Source: Planctomycetota bacterium (GTDB lineage Bacteria > Planctomycetota > Phycisphaerae > SM23-33). Taken from it: DNA of 61,914 nt. Each line of letters opens with the position of its first letter. Position 1 is the first letter of the stretch. Under the pieces are notes generated by a model. That model did no database searches. It saw only the letters and a program-made list of their open reading frames with translations, and was not told the origin of the DNA. The position numbers and the translations under genes were made by a program. Location: NCBI GenBank assembly GCA_024275995.1, contig JAJRYB010000022.1:1-61914 (forward strand), read 5' to 3'. Positions 2,648 to 55,063 of this stretch are shown piece after piece.

Positions 2648-5272
2648 ATGGATTCAGGCATGACTTTACGATCATCTTACATGGCGTGTGCGACGGCGCT
2701 GATCGGGGCCGTACTTTTCGGGGGAACTCAATCAAGCGCACAAGCCCAACAAAAGGACGTGCGATTCCGCGGTGCGATCGGCGGAGCGTTTACGGCGTTC
2801 GACGCTCCCGGAAAGTGGAAGCAGTGGTCGATTTTCATCACCAACACGTCCGACAGGACGCGCACGGTCCGACCGACCTACATCGCCAGGGACGCATCCG
2901 GCGCACGAATGGAGTTCTACCGCACGATCGTCGTTCCACCGGGCAGCGTCCGGCAGGCCACCATCGCCAGCAAGGTTGGCATGATGGACCTGACCGGCAG
3001 GAAAATAGCCGGCATGGAGCAGATCGAGCGGACGATCGTACTGTGGGATGTGGAAAGTAATAAACAGATCGAGAAAAATTACGGGTTTTCCACAAGACTT
3101 AATCCACGGCAGACAACCGTCGCAATGCTGGATAACCGAAACTTCCAGGAACCAAATGACACCTCGCAATATTTAGGGAAAATGCTTTCGGCGCCGCTGG
3201 GCGATGTGCGACCGCTCGGGAGGGCGGGGAAAAATATCATACCCGGCAGGTGGTACGCCTATTCCGCCGTCAGCGTCCTTATTCTCAATGGGATCAGCCC
3301 GGACACTATCCGTCCGGATCAGATGGAAGCGGTTCTCAACTGGGTCCGTCGCGGCGGTCTGCTGGTCGTCGCCGGATCGATAAACCTGCCGGACATGCTC
3401 GACGGAGAGCTTGGAAGGGCCTGCGGCGTGGTGGCTACGGGCGTGCATCGCGTCTCGTCGCTGCGCGTGAACAAACCCGGCAAAAAAAGTGGCGCCGCCG
3501 TAGAGTTGAAGCACCCGTTTTCGATGGCGGAGTTGTACCCCACCACGGCAAGCGTGCTTTACGAGGCGAACGGGCTGCCGCTGCTGACATTCCAGCCGTT
3601 CGGGCATGGGCGAATTTTCACGCTGGCAGTGCCTGTGGGCGCTTTGCAGGACAAGTCGCTCCACGCGCTGTGGGGGGACATCCGCTCGATGCGAACGGAG
3701 CCGCCCGCAATTGACGACGACGCTTTCGCGGTATACAGCAAAAATACGCTGGACAATATCGCCGGGCGCAGGGCGCCGTCGCGAGCGGTCCCGTTGACGA
3801 TCCTCGGCATCCTTGCCGGCGCGGTCGTCCTGGGCGGATTACTGCTGCGCCTGCGACGCGAATCGGCGGGGGAAGACAATATCGCCCCGAAGTTTTCCAG
3901 AATCGGCGGCAGGGGCGAGCTGCTGTGGGTGATGCTCGTACCGGCGTGCCTGCTGCTTTCGCTGGGAATCTACGTCTACGCCCGCTCGCAGACCGCGGCC
4001 GAGCGGCTCAGCTACGTCGGCCTTTTGACCAGCCTCGACGGTAAATGGACGCGCGTCCAGCAGGCTTTCGCGTATTCCGCGGGGCCTTCACCACGGGAAA
4101 TAACGTTTACCGCCGGGGACCCGCGCGGCGTCATTCAGGATATCGGAGAGCAAAGCTCCGGCGTGCTTTCGACGAGAATCCTGGAAACCGCAAAGAGCCT
4201 GCAGGTGCCGAACCAGCTCGTCGAGAGCGACGGTTCGCGCGCGTTCTACACGGATACCGTCATGGAGACCCAGGGAATCTCCGGATACCTGAGCTTCGGA
4301 CCCGATGGTGCCCTGAACCGTCTGCGCAACGACCTGCCCGTGGATCTCAGGGACGCCGTGCTCTACCTCAACGGACGGACGTACAGTGTCGGAACGCTCC
4401 ACGCCGGACGCGTCGCGGATACTTTCATCGCCGCGAAGGACCTGCTGGGCAAGGTAGAGTTCGTGGACGTCGAAAGCCCCCGCAAACGGCGTACGGCACA
4501 ACAGACAAAGACAGCCCGGAAGCGCAGTACCTCTGCGCAACGGCGAACCGGGCTGCGAAGGATGCGAAGAAAGACCGTCCGGGGCGAGTTCACCGCTTCG
4601 TTCGTGCATACCACTACGGACACGATCCGAAACCGCCTGCTACGCGACATTCTCAACCGTCCCGGCCTGAATGCCCCGGCTAGATCGCAACCCGTTCTGA
4701 TCGGTTACGCTCAATACACGCCGATCAGTCCCATCGACGATCGGAACGTCAAGGGCAAAGGATGGTCCGTGGTGGTCTGGCCGGTGCGCATGATTCCCCC
4801 CGCCAAAGGGTCCGAGGTATCCATACCGTCCGGTTTCGTTACGCTGGATTTCCGGCACCGTGGCGCAGTGATATGGGACGTCATCAACAGGCAGTTCAAT
4901 ATCGCCGCTCGCCCCGGAAGCGTGGTGGTCCTCGCCAGACCGCCGAAGGTCATCTCCTCGTTGGAGAAGGTGACGGCGAAGATCGAGATCAGGATGCAGG
5001 CGAGCGGGTATCGGCTCACGGTTCTCGGCGGCGGAACGGTGGGACGCGACGGTGGAACGCGGGTACCGGAAGTAGTATTGACCGAAACGACCAACCCCTC
5101 CAGCGTATCGGTTGAAGTTCCCGACGCCGATCGATTCCGCACGCCAGACGGGGCCTACGTGTTCACGCTGAAGGTGGAGAAATCCGACACATACGCCTCC
5201 GACGCCCCGGGCAGCGCCATGTGGAAAATCGATACCATAGACGTTGCGCTGAAAGGGGTTTTTGACCGGTGA
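2648..5272 (+). CDS. Large exported membrane protein with GATase-like domain
   Basis: About 874 aa. An N-terminal signal peptide (TLRSSYMACATALIGAVLF, cleavage near QSSAQA) leads into a periplasmic beta-rich region. Next comes a class I glutamine amidotransferase-like fold at about residues 185-270 (VLILNGISPDTI, then AVLNWVRRGGLLVVAGS) with no obvious catalytic Cys. Two transmembrane helices follow at about 380-400 and 425-445, then a long C-terminal region with a strongly basic stretch around residue 615-640. Similar proteins in planctomycetes accompany ABC exporters, but the function is unknown. The start is uncertain between ATG 2648, 2660 and 2681; none has a strong SD. It heads an operon with the ABC ATPase, the permease and the HEAT protein. 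Confidence 0.75.
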   Translation: MDSGMTLRSSYMACATALIGAVLFGGTQSSAQAQQKDVRFRGAIGGAFTAFDAPGKWKQWSIFITNTSDRTRTVRPTYIARDASGARMEFYRTIVVPPGSVRQATIASKVGMMDLTGRKIAGMEQIERTIVLWDVESNKQIEKNYGFSTRLNPRQTTVAMLDNRNFQEPNDTSQYLGKMLSAPLGDVRPLGRAGKNIIPGRWYAYSAVSVLILNGISPDTIRPDQMEAVLNWVRRGGLLVVAGSINLPDMLDGELGRACGVVATGVHRVSSLRVNKPGKKSGAAVELKHPFSMAELYPTTASVLYEANGLPLLTFQPFGHGRIFTLAVPVGALQDKSLHALWGDIRSMRTEPPAIDDDAFAVYSKNTLDNIAGRRAPSRAVPLTILGILAGAVVLGGLLLRLRRESAGEDNIAPKFSRIGGRGELLWVMLVPACLLLSLGIYVYARSQTAAERLSYVGLLTSLDGKWTRVQQAFAYSAGPSPREITFTAGDPRGVIQDIGEQSSGVLSTRILETAKSLQVPNQLVESDGSRAFYTDTVMETQGISGYLSFGPDGALNRLRNDLPVDLRDAVLYLNGRTYSVGTLHAGRVADTFIAAKDLLGKVEFVDVESPRKRRTAQQTKTARKRSTSAQRRTGLRRMRRKTVRGEFTASFVHTTTDTIRNRLLRDILNRPGLNAPARSQPVLIGYAQYTPISPIDDRNVKGKGWSVVVWPVRMIPPAKGSEVSIPSGFVTLDFRHRGAVIWDVINRQFNIAARPGSVVVLARPPKVISSLEKVTAKIEIRMQASGYRLTVLGGGTVGRDGGTRVPEVVLTETTNPSSVSVEVPDADRFRTPDGAYVFTLKVEKSDTYASDAPGSAMWKIDTIDVALKGVFDR

Positions 5273-9866: not shown

Positions 9867-10409
9867 CTACCTGCCGCGAATCCGCTCGCGAGCGTCCGCC
9901 TCGGCATATGCACCGAGGATTTTACCCCAGTACACGCGATGGTAGTCGCCGTCCACGTATGCCCCGGAAAGTATTTCGTCGGCCAGGCGATCCGGAAGCA
10001 CCTCGGAGCTGTGGACCACCTGGCATTCGTATACGATCGGACACTCGGCGACGATGGGAGCAAGTACCGAGGGCGCACGCTCGGCCGTCAGGTTGCACTC
10101 GGCGAACTTGTCCACGTCGCGCCCGCTTCTGCTGCCGCACGTCGTTGCGCAGTACCCGGCTATATCCTCCGACGGAACGTTCACCGTGAAGCACGCGCTG
10201 TGCTCGATGCATCGGTAGGTATACCGGCTGGGACGAACCAGCACCGTCCAGACCGGTATTCCCCAGATCGTCCCTATCGAGCCCCACCCTATCGTCATGA
10301 TATTCGCTTTTCCGGCTGCGTCGTAGCTCCCCAGAAGTAACCCGGGAGAGTTCAACGTCTCCATGACGATATCGAAGTTAGCGTTGAAGTTCATTTTCCG
10401 CCTTGCCAT
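9867..10409 (-). CDS. Flavin reductase-like (flavoredoxin) domain protein
   Basis: 180 aa, FMN-binding split-barrel protein of the flavin reductase/flavoredoxin family: NxxPGLLLGSYDAAGKANIMTIGW at the N terminus, then PVWTVLVRPSRYTY and the typical CFTVNVPSEDIAGYCATTCG segment. The ATG at 10409 has an AGGAG SD overlapping the purF TAG stop 11 nt upstream, so it is the downstream gene of a purF operon. Homologues reduce flavins or act in electron transfer in anaerobes; the partner is not evident here. Confidence 0.85.
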   Translation of the reverse strand: MARRKMNFNANFDIVMETLNSPGLLLGSYDAAGKANIMTIGWGSIGTIWGIPVWTVLVRPSRYTYRCIEHSACFTVNVPSEDIAGYCATTCGSRSGRDVDKFAECNLTAERAPSVLAPIVAECPIVYECQVVHSSEVLPDRLADEILSGAYVDGDYHRVYWGKILGAYAEADARERIRGR

Positions 10410-10420
10410 CGTCAGGTCTC

Positions 10421-10759
10421 CTACTGCTCGTAAGTCCTTCCGGCGCGCCCAGCCTTGAAGTTGCGCTTGGCGCAGCCCATGTGCTTCCGGCCCCACGTCG
10501 ATGGATACGATCCGGTGACGCATCCGACGCACAGGCTTTCTCCTTCGACGTTAAGGCACGGCTCGAGATCAGCAACGGGCAGGTATCGCAGGCTGTCCAC
10601 GTGAAGCACCCTGGCCATTGCGGCGAGCGTATCAGGATCGGGCTCGCCCTTGTATCCCGGAGGAATGAACTTCGGCGCGAACAGCTCGCCGAGGGTTGAC
10701 ATGTCTATTCCGTAGAAGCATGGCGCAACTATCGGCGGGCACGCCACGCGAACGTGTAT
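10421..10759 (-). pseudogene. purF: C-terminal remainder of purF, downstream of an in-frame TAA
   Basis: This stretch continues the reading frame of the 10760-12076 gene without shift. Immediately after the TAA (10762-10760) it reads [20 protein letters not shown], the strongly conserved PurF segment at the C-terminal side of the PRPP-binding loop, then [11 protein letters not shown] and a Cys-rich tail ([10 protein letters not shown]) ending at a TAG. Without readthrough it could only be made as a separate fragment from the in-frame GTG at 10747. The stop probably replaces a Glu codon (GAA to TAA), since PurF proteins usually have an acidic or polar residue there. Sequencing error, true nonsense mutation and readthrough cannot be told apart here. 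Confidence 0.85.
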
Positions 10760-12076
10760 TTACCTGGCGCCCCCGCGAGAGCGTATCTTCTCCGCCAAAG
10801 TCACCAGCGTCGTCGACCGCACGATGGAATCCTCGATCAGGAAAACCCGCTTGCCCGCCAGCACACCCGGAAGCGGGGTGTACTTGCCTTTGGCGCTTCG
10901 CCCGCGGCTGGAGGTCGGCTGGATGAACGTCCGCCCGATGTAGCGGTTGCGGATAAGGCCTTCCACGCACGGAACTTTCATCGCGTAGGCGAAGGCGTCC
11001 GCCGCCCCCTTTGCCGTGTCCGGGACCGGGACCACGATGCAATCGTCGTCCATTTCCTCGTCTTCCATCTCCGCCAGCTTCTGCCCGCTCCGGCTGCGCG
11101 CCAGGTAAACCGACGAGCCGTCGATCTCGCTGGCGACGTTGGAAAAGTAAACCCACTCGAAGAAACACCTCGCCTTGCGAGGGGACGGCGCGAATCGACG
11201 GATCCGCACGCCGCCATTTTCGATGATCGCCATTTCGCCTGGTTTCAGCGATTGTATGTCCGCAAAACCGATGTTGCTCAGGGCGACCGATTCGCTCGCA
11301 GCCCCGAACAGCTTGCCCTGCACCGACCAGTTCAACGGGCGCAACCCCAGCGGGTCCCGCGCGACGAACATCCGCCCCATCGCGTCGAGATAGACGATGT
11401 TGTACGCCCCGTCGAAGCTCCGCGACAGCGATCCCATTACCTTATCCAACGGGGGCGGACTGTCCCCGCGCAGACGATACGCCAGCGAGTGCATGACAAT
11501 CTCGGTGTCAGTGTTCATCGAGAAATGATAATTGCGCTTCGCCAGCAGGCGGTCGCGCAGTTCGGCGTAGTTGGCGAGCTGCCCGTTGAACGCGAAGCTG
11601 AACCACTTCCAAAGCCTGCCGTGATGCCTCTCGAACGGCTGGGCGTATCGCACGTCGTCCAGCCCGCAGGTGGCGTAGCGGGTATGCCCGATAACCGCCT
11701 TTCCGGCGTATTCCTCCATAATCGCGCGGTACTTGAGCGGATGTGACATCCGGAACGACTCGGTTACCGTTCCGATATCCCTGTAGGTGTCGAGCAGTTG
11801 CGCCCGCCCCGGGTGGTAGCTGCTCAACCCGCTGGCGAGCTGGCCGCGGTTCTGGAGGTCCAGCAGCATCGAAGGCATGAGCGACGCCACGTCGCCGAGG
11901 TGGACGGACCGGCTGGCGGGTCCGGATTTACCGGCGGCACGATCCAGCCAATACAAAGCCGCCACACCACACTCGTGATGAAGCACTTCACTCAAGGTTC
12001 CACTCCCATCTTGTCGAAACCGCTTCCTGAACGGACGGAAATCCGTGAGAGCTTCATCATAGCGTTCGGAAGGCAT
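10760..12076 (-). CDS. purF: Amidophosphoribosyltransferase, cut short by an in-frame stop
   Basis: Catalyses the first step of purine synthesis: PRPP plus glutamine to phosphoribosylamine. The N-terminal Ntn glutaminase domain starts at the nucleophile Cys in HHECGVAALYWL, exposed after propeptide removal. The phosphoribosyltransferase domain carries the PRPP signature VFLIEDSIVRSTT. The frame stops at TAA 10762-10760, and the missing 112 codons follow in the same frame, so this is a single-codon lesion. ATG 12076 has no SD. A TTG at 11995 has GGGAG seven bases upstream and begins SEVLHHECG, a propeptide length closer to the family, so it may be the true start. A weak promoter lies at 12114-12087. 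Confidence 0.88.
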   Translation of the reverse strand: MPSERYDEALTDFRPFRKRFRQDGSGTLSEVLHHECGVAALYWLDRAAGKSGPASRSVHLGDVASLMPSMLLDLQNRGQLASGLSSYHPGRAQLLDTYRDIGTVTESFRMSHPLKYRAIMEEYAGKAVIGHTRYATCGLDDVRYAQPFERHHGRLWKWFSFAFNGQLANYAELRDRLLAKRNYHFSMNTDTEIVMHSLAYRLRGDSPPPLDKVMGSLSRSFDGAYNIVYLDAMGRMFVARDPLGLRPLNWSVQGKLFGAASESVALSNIGFADIQSLKPGEMAIIENGGVRIRRFAPSPRKARCFFEWVYFSNVASEIDGSSVYLARSRSGQKLAEMEDEEMDDDCIVVPVPDTAKGAADAFAYAMKVPCVEGLIRNRYIGRTFIQPTSSRGRSAKGKYTPLPGVLAGKRVFLIEDSIVRSTTLVTLAEKIRSRGGAR

Positions 12077-53524: not shown

Positions 53525-55063
53525 ATGGGTCCACGACGTCACGCAACAAAACTGATATGCCCGTTGACCTCGGCGAGCCCCTCGGAGATGCTCGCCGAGA
53601 TGCGCCGCGCCAACGACGCCGGGTCCGATACCGTCGAGTGCCGCCTGGACTTTCTGCGCGACCTCCCAAGCGAAAAGGACCTGCAAACCATCTTCGGCGG
53701 CTCGCAGGGGGAACTCATCGCCACGCTTCGCCCCGTTCGCCAAGGAGGGCGCTACGACGGCGACGAAGGGCAACGACTCGACATCCTCCGCAAGTGCGCA
53801 CAGATGGGCGCGCGGTACGTTGACATCGAGATCGACGTCCCCCGCCAAGACTGGCCGGACGCTGAGATCATTCTTTCGCACCATGATTTCGAGCGTTGCC
53901 CGGTTGACCTGGATGATATCCTGCAACGGATGGAGGCTTCGGACGCCGCGGTCAACAAGGTGGCATTCGCCGCCAACGGACCGGAAGACGCCTTTCGCGC
54001 CCTGGATTTCATTCGCGCTTCGCAAAAACCGGCGATGGCGATGGCGATGGGCGAAGCGGGCGTCCCCAGCCGGATTCTCGCCGGAAAGTTCGGCGCGTTC
54101 GGAACGTTCGCGTCGCTGGACGAGAAATCCTCTTCCGCACCGGGGCAATTGACGATCGACGAAATGAAGAATCTTTATCGCTGGGACGAAATCGGCCCGG
54201 AAACGTTTGTCTGCGGCGTTGTGGGCTGCCCCGTCGCACACTCGATGAGCCCGGCGATTCACAACGCAGCCTTCGCTACGACGAATATCGACGGCGTTTA
54301 CGTGCCTCTTCTCGCCCACGGCGGCGAGGACGGCGAGAAAAACTTCCGCCGATTCATGGACGCCCTTCTCGCCCGGAAGTGGATGAACTGGCGAGGTCTG
54401 AGCGTTACGCTGCCGCACAAGGAACACGCCCTGGCATACCTCGATAAACGCAATTGCGACGCGCTGGCGATAAAGATCGGCGCTATCAACACGATTACAT
54501 TCGAGACGGACGCCGCACCGCGCGGAGACAATACGGATTACGCCGCGGCGATAGAGTGCCTCTGCCGGTCCATGTCGATTGATCGAGCCAACCTCGCCGG
54601 CAGTCGCGTTGCCGTTCTCGGCGCCGGAGGGGTCGCACGCTCCATCGTCGCTGGGCTGGCGCACTGCGGCGCGGAAGTTACGATCTACAATCGCACCGTT
54701 TCCCGCTCCGAAACGCTCGCGACGGAATTCGCCTGCGGCTGGGGACCGCTCGACGAGGCGGTGCGCTTCGACGGCGAAATTATCGTCAACTGCACCTCCG
54801 TCGGGATGTCGCCAAACGTGGACGCCTCGCCGCTGGAGAGCATACCCCACTCGGTGAAGGTGGTGTTCGATACGATCTACAACCCCCTCGATACCCGTTT
54901 ACTGCAGGCAGCGCGCGACGCGGGATGCGCTATCGTCACGGGCCTGGATATGTTCGTCAACCAGGCGGCGGCGCAATTTGAGTTATGGACCGGAATCGAC
55001 GCGCCCATCGACGTCATGCGAAATGTCGTCATGGAGAAACTCTCCGAAAAGGACGAATGTTAA
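53525..55063 (+). CDS. aroDE: Bifunctional 3-dehydroquinate dehydratase / shikimate dehydrogenase
   Basis: 512 aa fusion carrying out two consecutive shikimate-pathway steps. Residues 1-225 form a type I dehydroquinase: ECRLDFLRDL, catalytic His120 in LSHHDF and Schiff-base Lys145 in AAVNKVAFAA. Residues 228-512 form shikimate dehydrogenase: GCPVAHSMSPAIHN, catalytic Lys299 in SVTLPHKE, Asp338 in GDNTDY and the NADP site VAVLGAGGVARSIV. The same domain order occurs in plants and is known in several planctomycetes and chlamydiae; most bacteria keep aroD and aroE apart. All catalytic residues are present in both halves. The nitrilase gene starts directly at its stop. Confidence 0.95.
   Translation: MGPRRHATKLICPLTSASPSEMLAEMRRANDAGSDTVECRLDFLRDLPSEKDLQTIFGGSQGELIATLRPVRQGGRYDGDEGQRLDILRKCAQMGARYVDIEIDVPRQDWPDAEIILSHHDFERCPVDLDDILQRMEASDAAVNKVAFAANGPEDAFRALDFIRASQKPAMAMAMGEAGVPSRILAGKFGAFGTFASLDEKSSSAPGQLTIDEMKNLYRWDEIGPETFVCGVVGCPVAHSMSPAIHNAAFATTNIDGVYVPLLAHGGEDGEKNFRRFMDALLARKWMNWRGLSVTLPHKEHALAYLDKRNCDALAIKIGAINTITFETDAAPRGDNTDYAAAIECLCRSMSIDRANLAGSRVAVLGAGGVARSIVAGLAHCGAEVTIYNRTVSRSETLATEFACGWGPLDEAVRFDGEIIVNCTSVGMSPNVDASPLESIPHSVKVVFDTIYNPLDTRLLQAARDAGCAIVTGLDMFVNQAAAQFELWTGIDAPIDVMRNVVMEKLSEKDEC

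Follow-up and report, generated by a model that had tools for sequence, protein, structure and literature searches.

Relation of the locus to described PurF enzymes

PurF, the amidophosphoribosyltransferase, carries out the first step of purine synthesis, and the enzyme of Bacillus subtilis contains a [4Fe-4S] cluster held by four cysteine ligands. The window analyzed here, a stretch of 61,914 nucleotides from a draft assembly of a Planctomycetota bacterium, carries a minus-strand gene whose product resembles this Fe-S type PurF (1ao0/1gph), with which it shares a near-full-length alignment, the HECGV start, the PRPP loop, the CFYGID motif and a CxxC motif. Unlike the B. subtilis gene, the window gene has an in-frame TAA, scores below the curated profile cut-off and belongs to a divergent clade. 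The alignment with B. subtilis PurF (E = 3e-66) spans the TAA, and the B. subtilis residue at that position is Glu.

The frame scored 285 bits against the TIGR01134 purF profile, for which the NCBIfam cut-off is 350 bits, and the match covers model positions 18-432 of 432. Full-length intact orthologues from the same bacterial family scored approximately 295-327 bits and were likewise below the cut-off, indicating that the low score reflects the divergent clade and not damage to the gene. We thus class the window gene by homology as a divergent PurF, and not as an equivalog by the curated cut-off; annotation that relies on this cut-off may miss the clade. The N-terminal nucleophile cysteine of class II glutaminases is present after a short propeptide (MSEVLHHECGV..., aligned with homologues), and Pfam matches to GATase_6/7 were obtained; the window copy gave no Pfam PRTase match. 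The PRPP loop FLIEDSIVRSTT is present, but in the assembled sequence the PRTase domain is cut by the TAA, and a complete PRTase domain would exist in one chain only if the TAA is not real.

Judged by the organism names of the matched records, members of the divergent clade occur in Phycisphaerae and further planctomycetes and, at a greater distance, in DPANN archaea, including Diapherotrites. Planctomycetes and DPANN archaea share the protein at about 43-50% identity (the window gene and L037-L108), a distribution to which gene transfer could have contributed. Many relatives additionally encode a second PurF-like protein starting with MGGFFGVAS, often adjoining the divergent purF (L158, L159, L160 and L161; also L035, L036 and L029), which has Gly at the expected glutaminase catalytic Cys, keeps a PRPP loop (FCEDSIVRGTQ) and could act as a partner, either ammonia-dependent or regulatory. 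This protein is absent from the present assembly, where a direct search returned the window purF alone (31% identity).

The purF reading frame and its interruption

The gene lies in a minus-strand frame that is open from ATG 12076 to TAG 10423-10421 with TAA 10762-10760 as its sole interruption, separating an ORF at 10760..12076 from a second ORF in the same frame at 10421..10747. Translation of the frame with X at the TAA gave 551 residues with exactly one stop. These ORFs and the read-through translation bore out the first-pass annotation, which had reported an in-frame TAA with the frame open on both sides; alignment across the stop likewise agreed with the conserved PurF peptide it had quoted from beyond the TAA, and its figure of 112 residues lost by truncation was correct. 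The start was revised, however, since homologues begin near residue 28 of 551, making TTG 11995, which is preceded by GGAG, a more probable start codon than ATG 12076. Counted from this TTG, the assembled product is 411 residues long, and the frame would span 524 codons were it uninterrupted (Table 1).

Table 1. Features of the interrupted purF gene in the window
Feature	Position	Strand	Basis
purF (divergent amidophosphoribosyltransferase), whole frame, interrupted once	10421..11995	-	TIGR01134 match, 285 bits; start positions of homologues
In-frame TAA, aligned to GAA/GAG of nearly all homologues	10760..10762	-	
Part 5' of the TAA, 411 aa: glutaminase and PRTase, ending shortly after the PRPP loop (FLIEDSIVRSTT)	10763..11995	-	
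Part 3' of the TAA, 112 codons: conserved C-terminus with CFYGIDM and CVGC cysteines	10424..10759	-	

Other strong cases in the window in which coding signal flanks a stop (783, 49917 and 57204) were boundaries between separate genes where checked, and none of 78 matches to the ABC_tran, Radical_SAM and Response_reg domains, sampled across the genome, contained an internal stop; together, these data argue that the purF TAA is not a chance finding. A gene with a flavin-reductase domain (9867-10409) starts a few bases past the natural purF stop and may be translated together with purF, in which case the premature stop could reduce expression of this gene as well.

Codon and conservation at the stop

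Comparison by tblastn with all fetched homologues showed a sense codon opposite the TAA in all of them, and this codon is almost always GAA or GAG. In some of them the surrounding codons are nearly identical: the window reads GCC AGG TAA ATA CAC GTT where one relative reads GCC AGG GAA ATT CAC GTT (L035) and another GCC AGG GAA ATA CAC GTC (L088). No internal stop in purF was found among the matches listed from the genomes of 60 relatives. Given the near-universal GAA/GAG and the matching neighboring codons, one substitution is the simplest account of the TAA; the change from GAA to TAA proposed from the sequence at first pass is thus strongly supported, and the possibility raised there that all homologues carry TAA is excluded. 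A frameshift or misjoin was rejected, as the frame runs on without an indel in the alignments with homologues.

Conservation on the two sides of the stop was compared among 64 distinct homologues, 21 of them near relatives. Mean identity of the window PurF to the near relatives was 0.684 before the TAA and 0.626 after it, a ratio (after/before) of 0.915 that falls within the relatives' own range of 0.85-1.01, and the window protein showed zero deviations at the columns in which 97% of the other homologues agree. Since both flanks are conserved as in intact relatives, the event is either recent or not real, and these two are alike as far as the conservation comparison goes. An older pseudogene, i.e., a long-dead purF, was rejected because neither side of the TAA shows decay.

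Genome context and origin of the stop

One purF is present in the assembly, which totals 2.64 Mb in 134 contigs and is 97% complete; the search for a second copy that had been suggested at first pass was run across the assembly and found none. The other TIGR01134 matches cover the glutaminase part only and, judging from their position and length, look like GlmS- and asparagine-synthase-type genes. The purD, purM, purL and purH genes are present and intact, with no internal stops.

Taken together, these observations point to a one-base change in a single-copy and otherwise intact purF, with GAA to TAA the most likely substitution. The population is most likely not fixed for the TAA, which would represent either a consensus or assembly error or an allele of a minor strain that entered the contig. 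We favor this explanation by judgement over a real recent null, with a probability of roughly 0.57, because the rest of the tested pathway is intact and relatives keep purF; living cells would then mostly carry a sense codon at this position. The draft state of the genome (134 contigs), the preservation of both flanks of the TAA and the absence of deviations at conserved columns are consistent with such an origin. In addition, the changed base comes after GG, in a GGC-containing stretch, and errors in Illumina data are reported to follow a G frequently and to be associated with GGC and with inverted repeats (PMC4787001), although the platform used here may differ. In the related MAG fen_1349 (L088), the purF frame is broken around 3388-3428 by an assembly gap marked NN, showing that assembly defects do occur in a related assembly. 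Against an error, the 0 of 78 domain matches with an internal stop indicate that errors are not widespread in the assembly and lend no support to a high error rate, a sample that is nevertheless compatible with a handful of errors genome-wide; the hairpin at the TAA was also unremarkable, being not notably stronger than in shuffled sequences (z about -1 to -1.5).

The same cleanliness of the sampled genes fits a real and very recent nonsense mutation, which we regard as a credible but tentative second explanation, whereby truncated PurF is inactive and the strain is a purine auxotroph within its community. The TAA sits in the only purF copy of the assembly, and the absence of decay suits an error and a recent event equally well. 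Conversely, the tested remainder of the purine pathway is intact, full-length relatives keep purF open, and purF itself has no second inactivating change. Were the TAA real, the product should be inactive, since the 112 residues lost include the last part of the PRTase domain together with three of the four Fe-S cysteines that we infer for the window protein (one before the TAA in CFFEW, three after it in CFYGID and CVGC); a strain with such a product would need purines from outside. The draft genome would in that case describe a purine auxotroph missing only the first committed step, with a possible dependence on its neighbors, whereas in the case of an error it would illustrate how a single base can decide an auxotrophy call made from a draft genome.

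It is very improbable that PurF works despite the TAA, either by readthrough or by a restart at GTG 10747 yielding two chains that form an active enzyme. Both parts are fully conserved and this in-frame GTG is the fifth codon past the TAA, but no homologue is split or stopped at this position, no well-spaced ribosome-binding site precedes the GTG, and the cut falls within one folded domain, the PRTase, just past the PRPP loop. A suppressor tRNA was rejected, as none of the 40 tRNA genes has an anticodon for TAA, and an RNA element or special fold was rejected as well, since no Rfam family was found near the TAA and the fold there was not above chance.

A changed genetic code in which TAA is read as sense, for which the single purF TAA itself is all that speaks, is refuted by the ordinary TAA stop of aroDE (53525-55063), which lies about 10 residues past a final domain matched to its profile end, by the 40 tRNAs, none with anticodon TTA, and by the lack of internal stops in purD, purM, purL and purH as well as in the 78 sampled domain matches; the first-pass view that a code change is unlikely therefore holds, and none of the homologues compared has a stop conserved at this site as recoding would have it.

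Comparison with known cases

Whether an error or a mutation, the purF TAA is most likely an ordinary single-base nonsense change, involving no new mechanism. Set against the nonsense alleles and single-base consensus errors of draft MAGs, the window purF has nothing distinctive, and it shares with them the same single substitution, the lack of other decay, the lack of a backup copy and the setting in a draft assembly.
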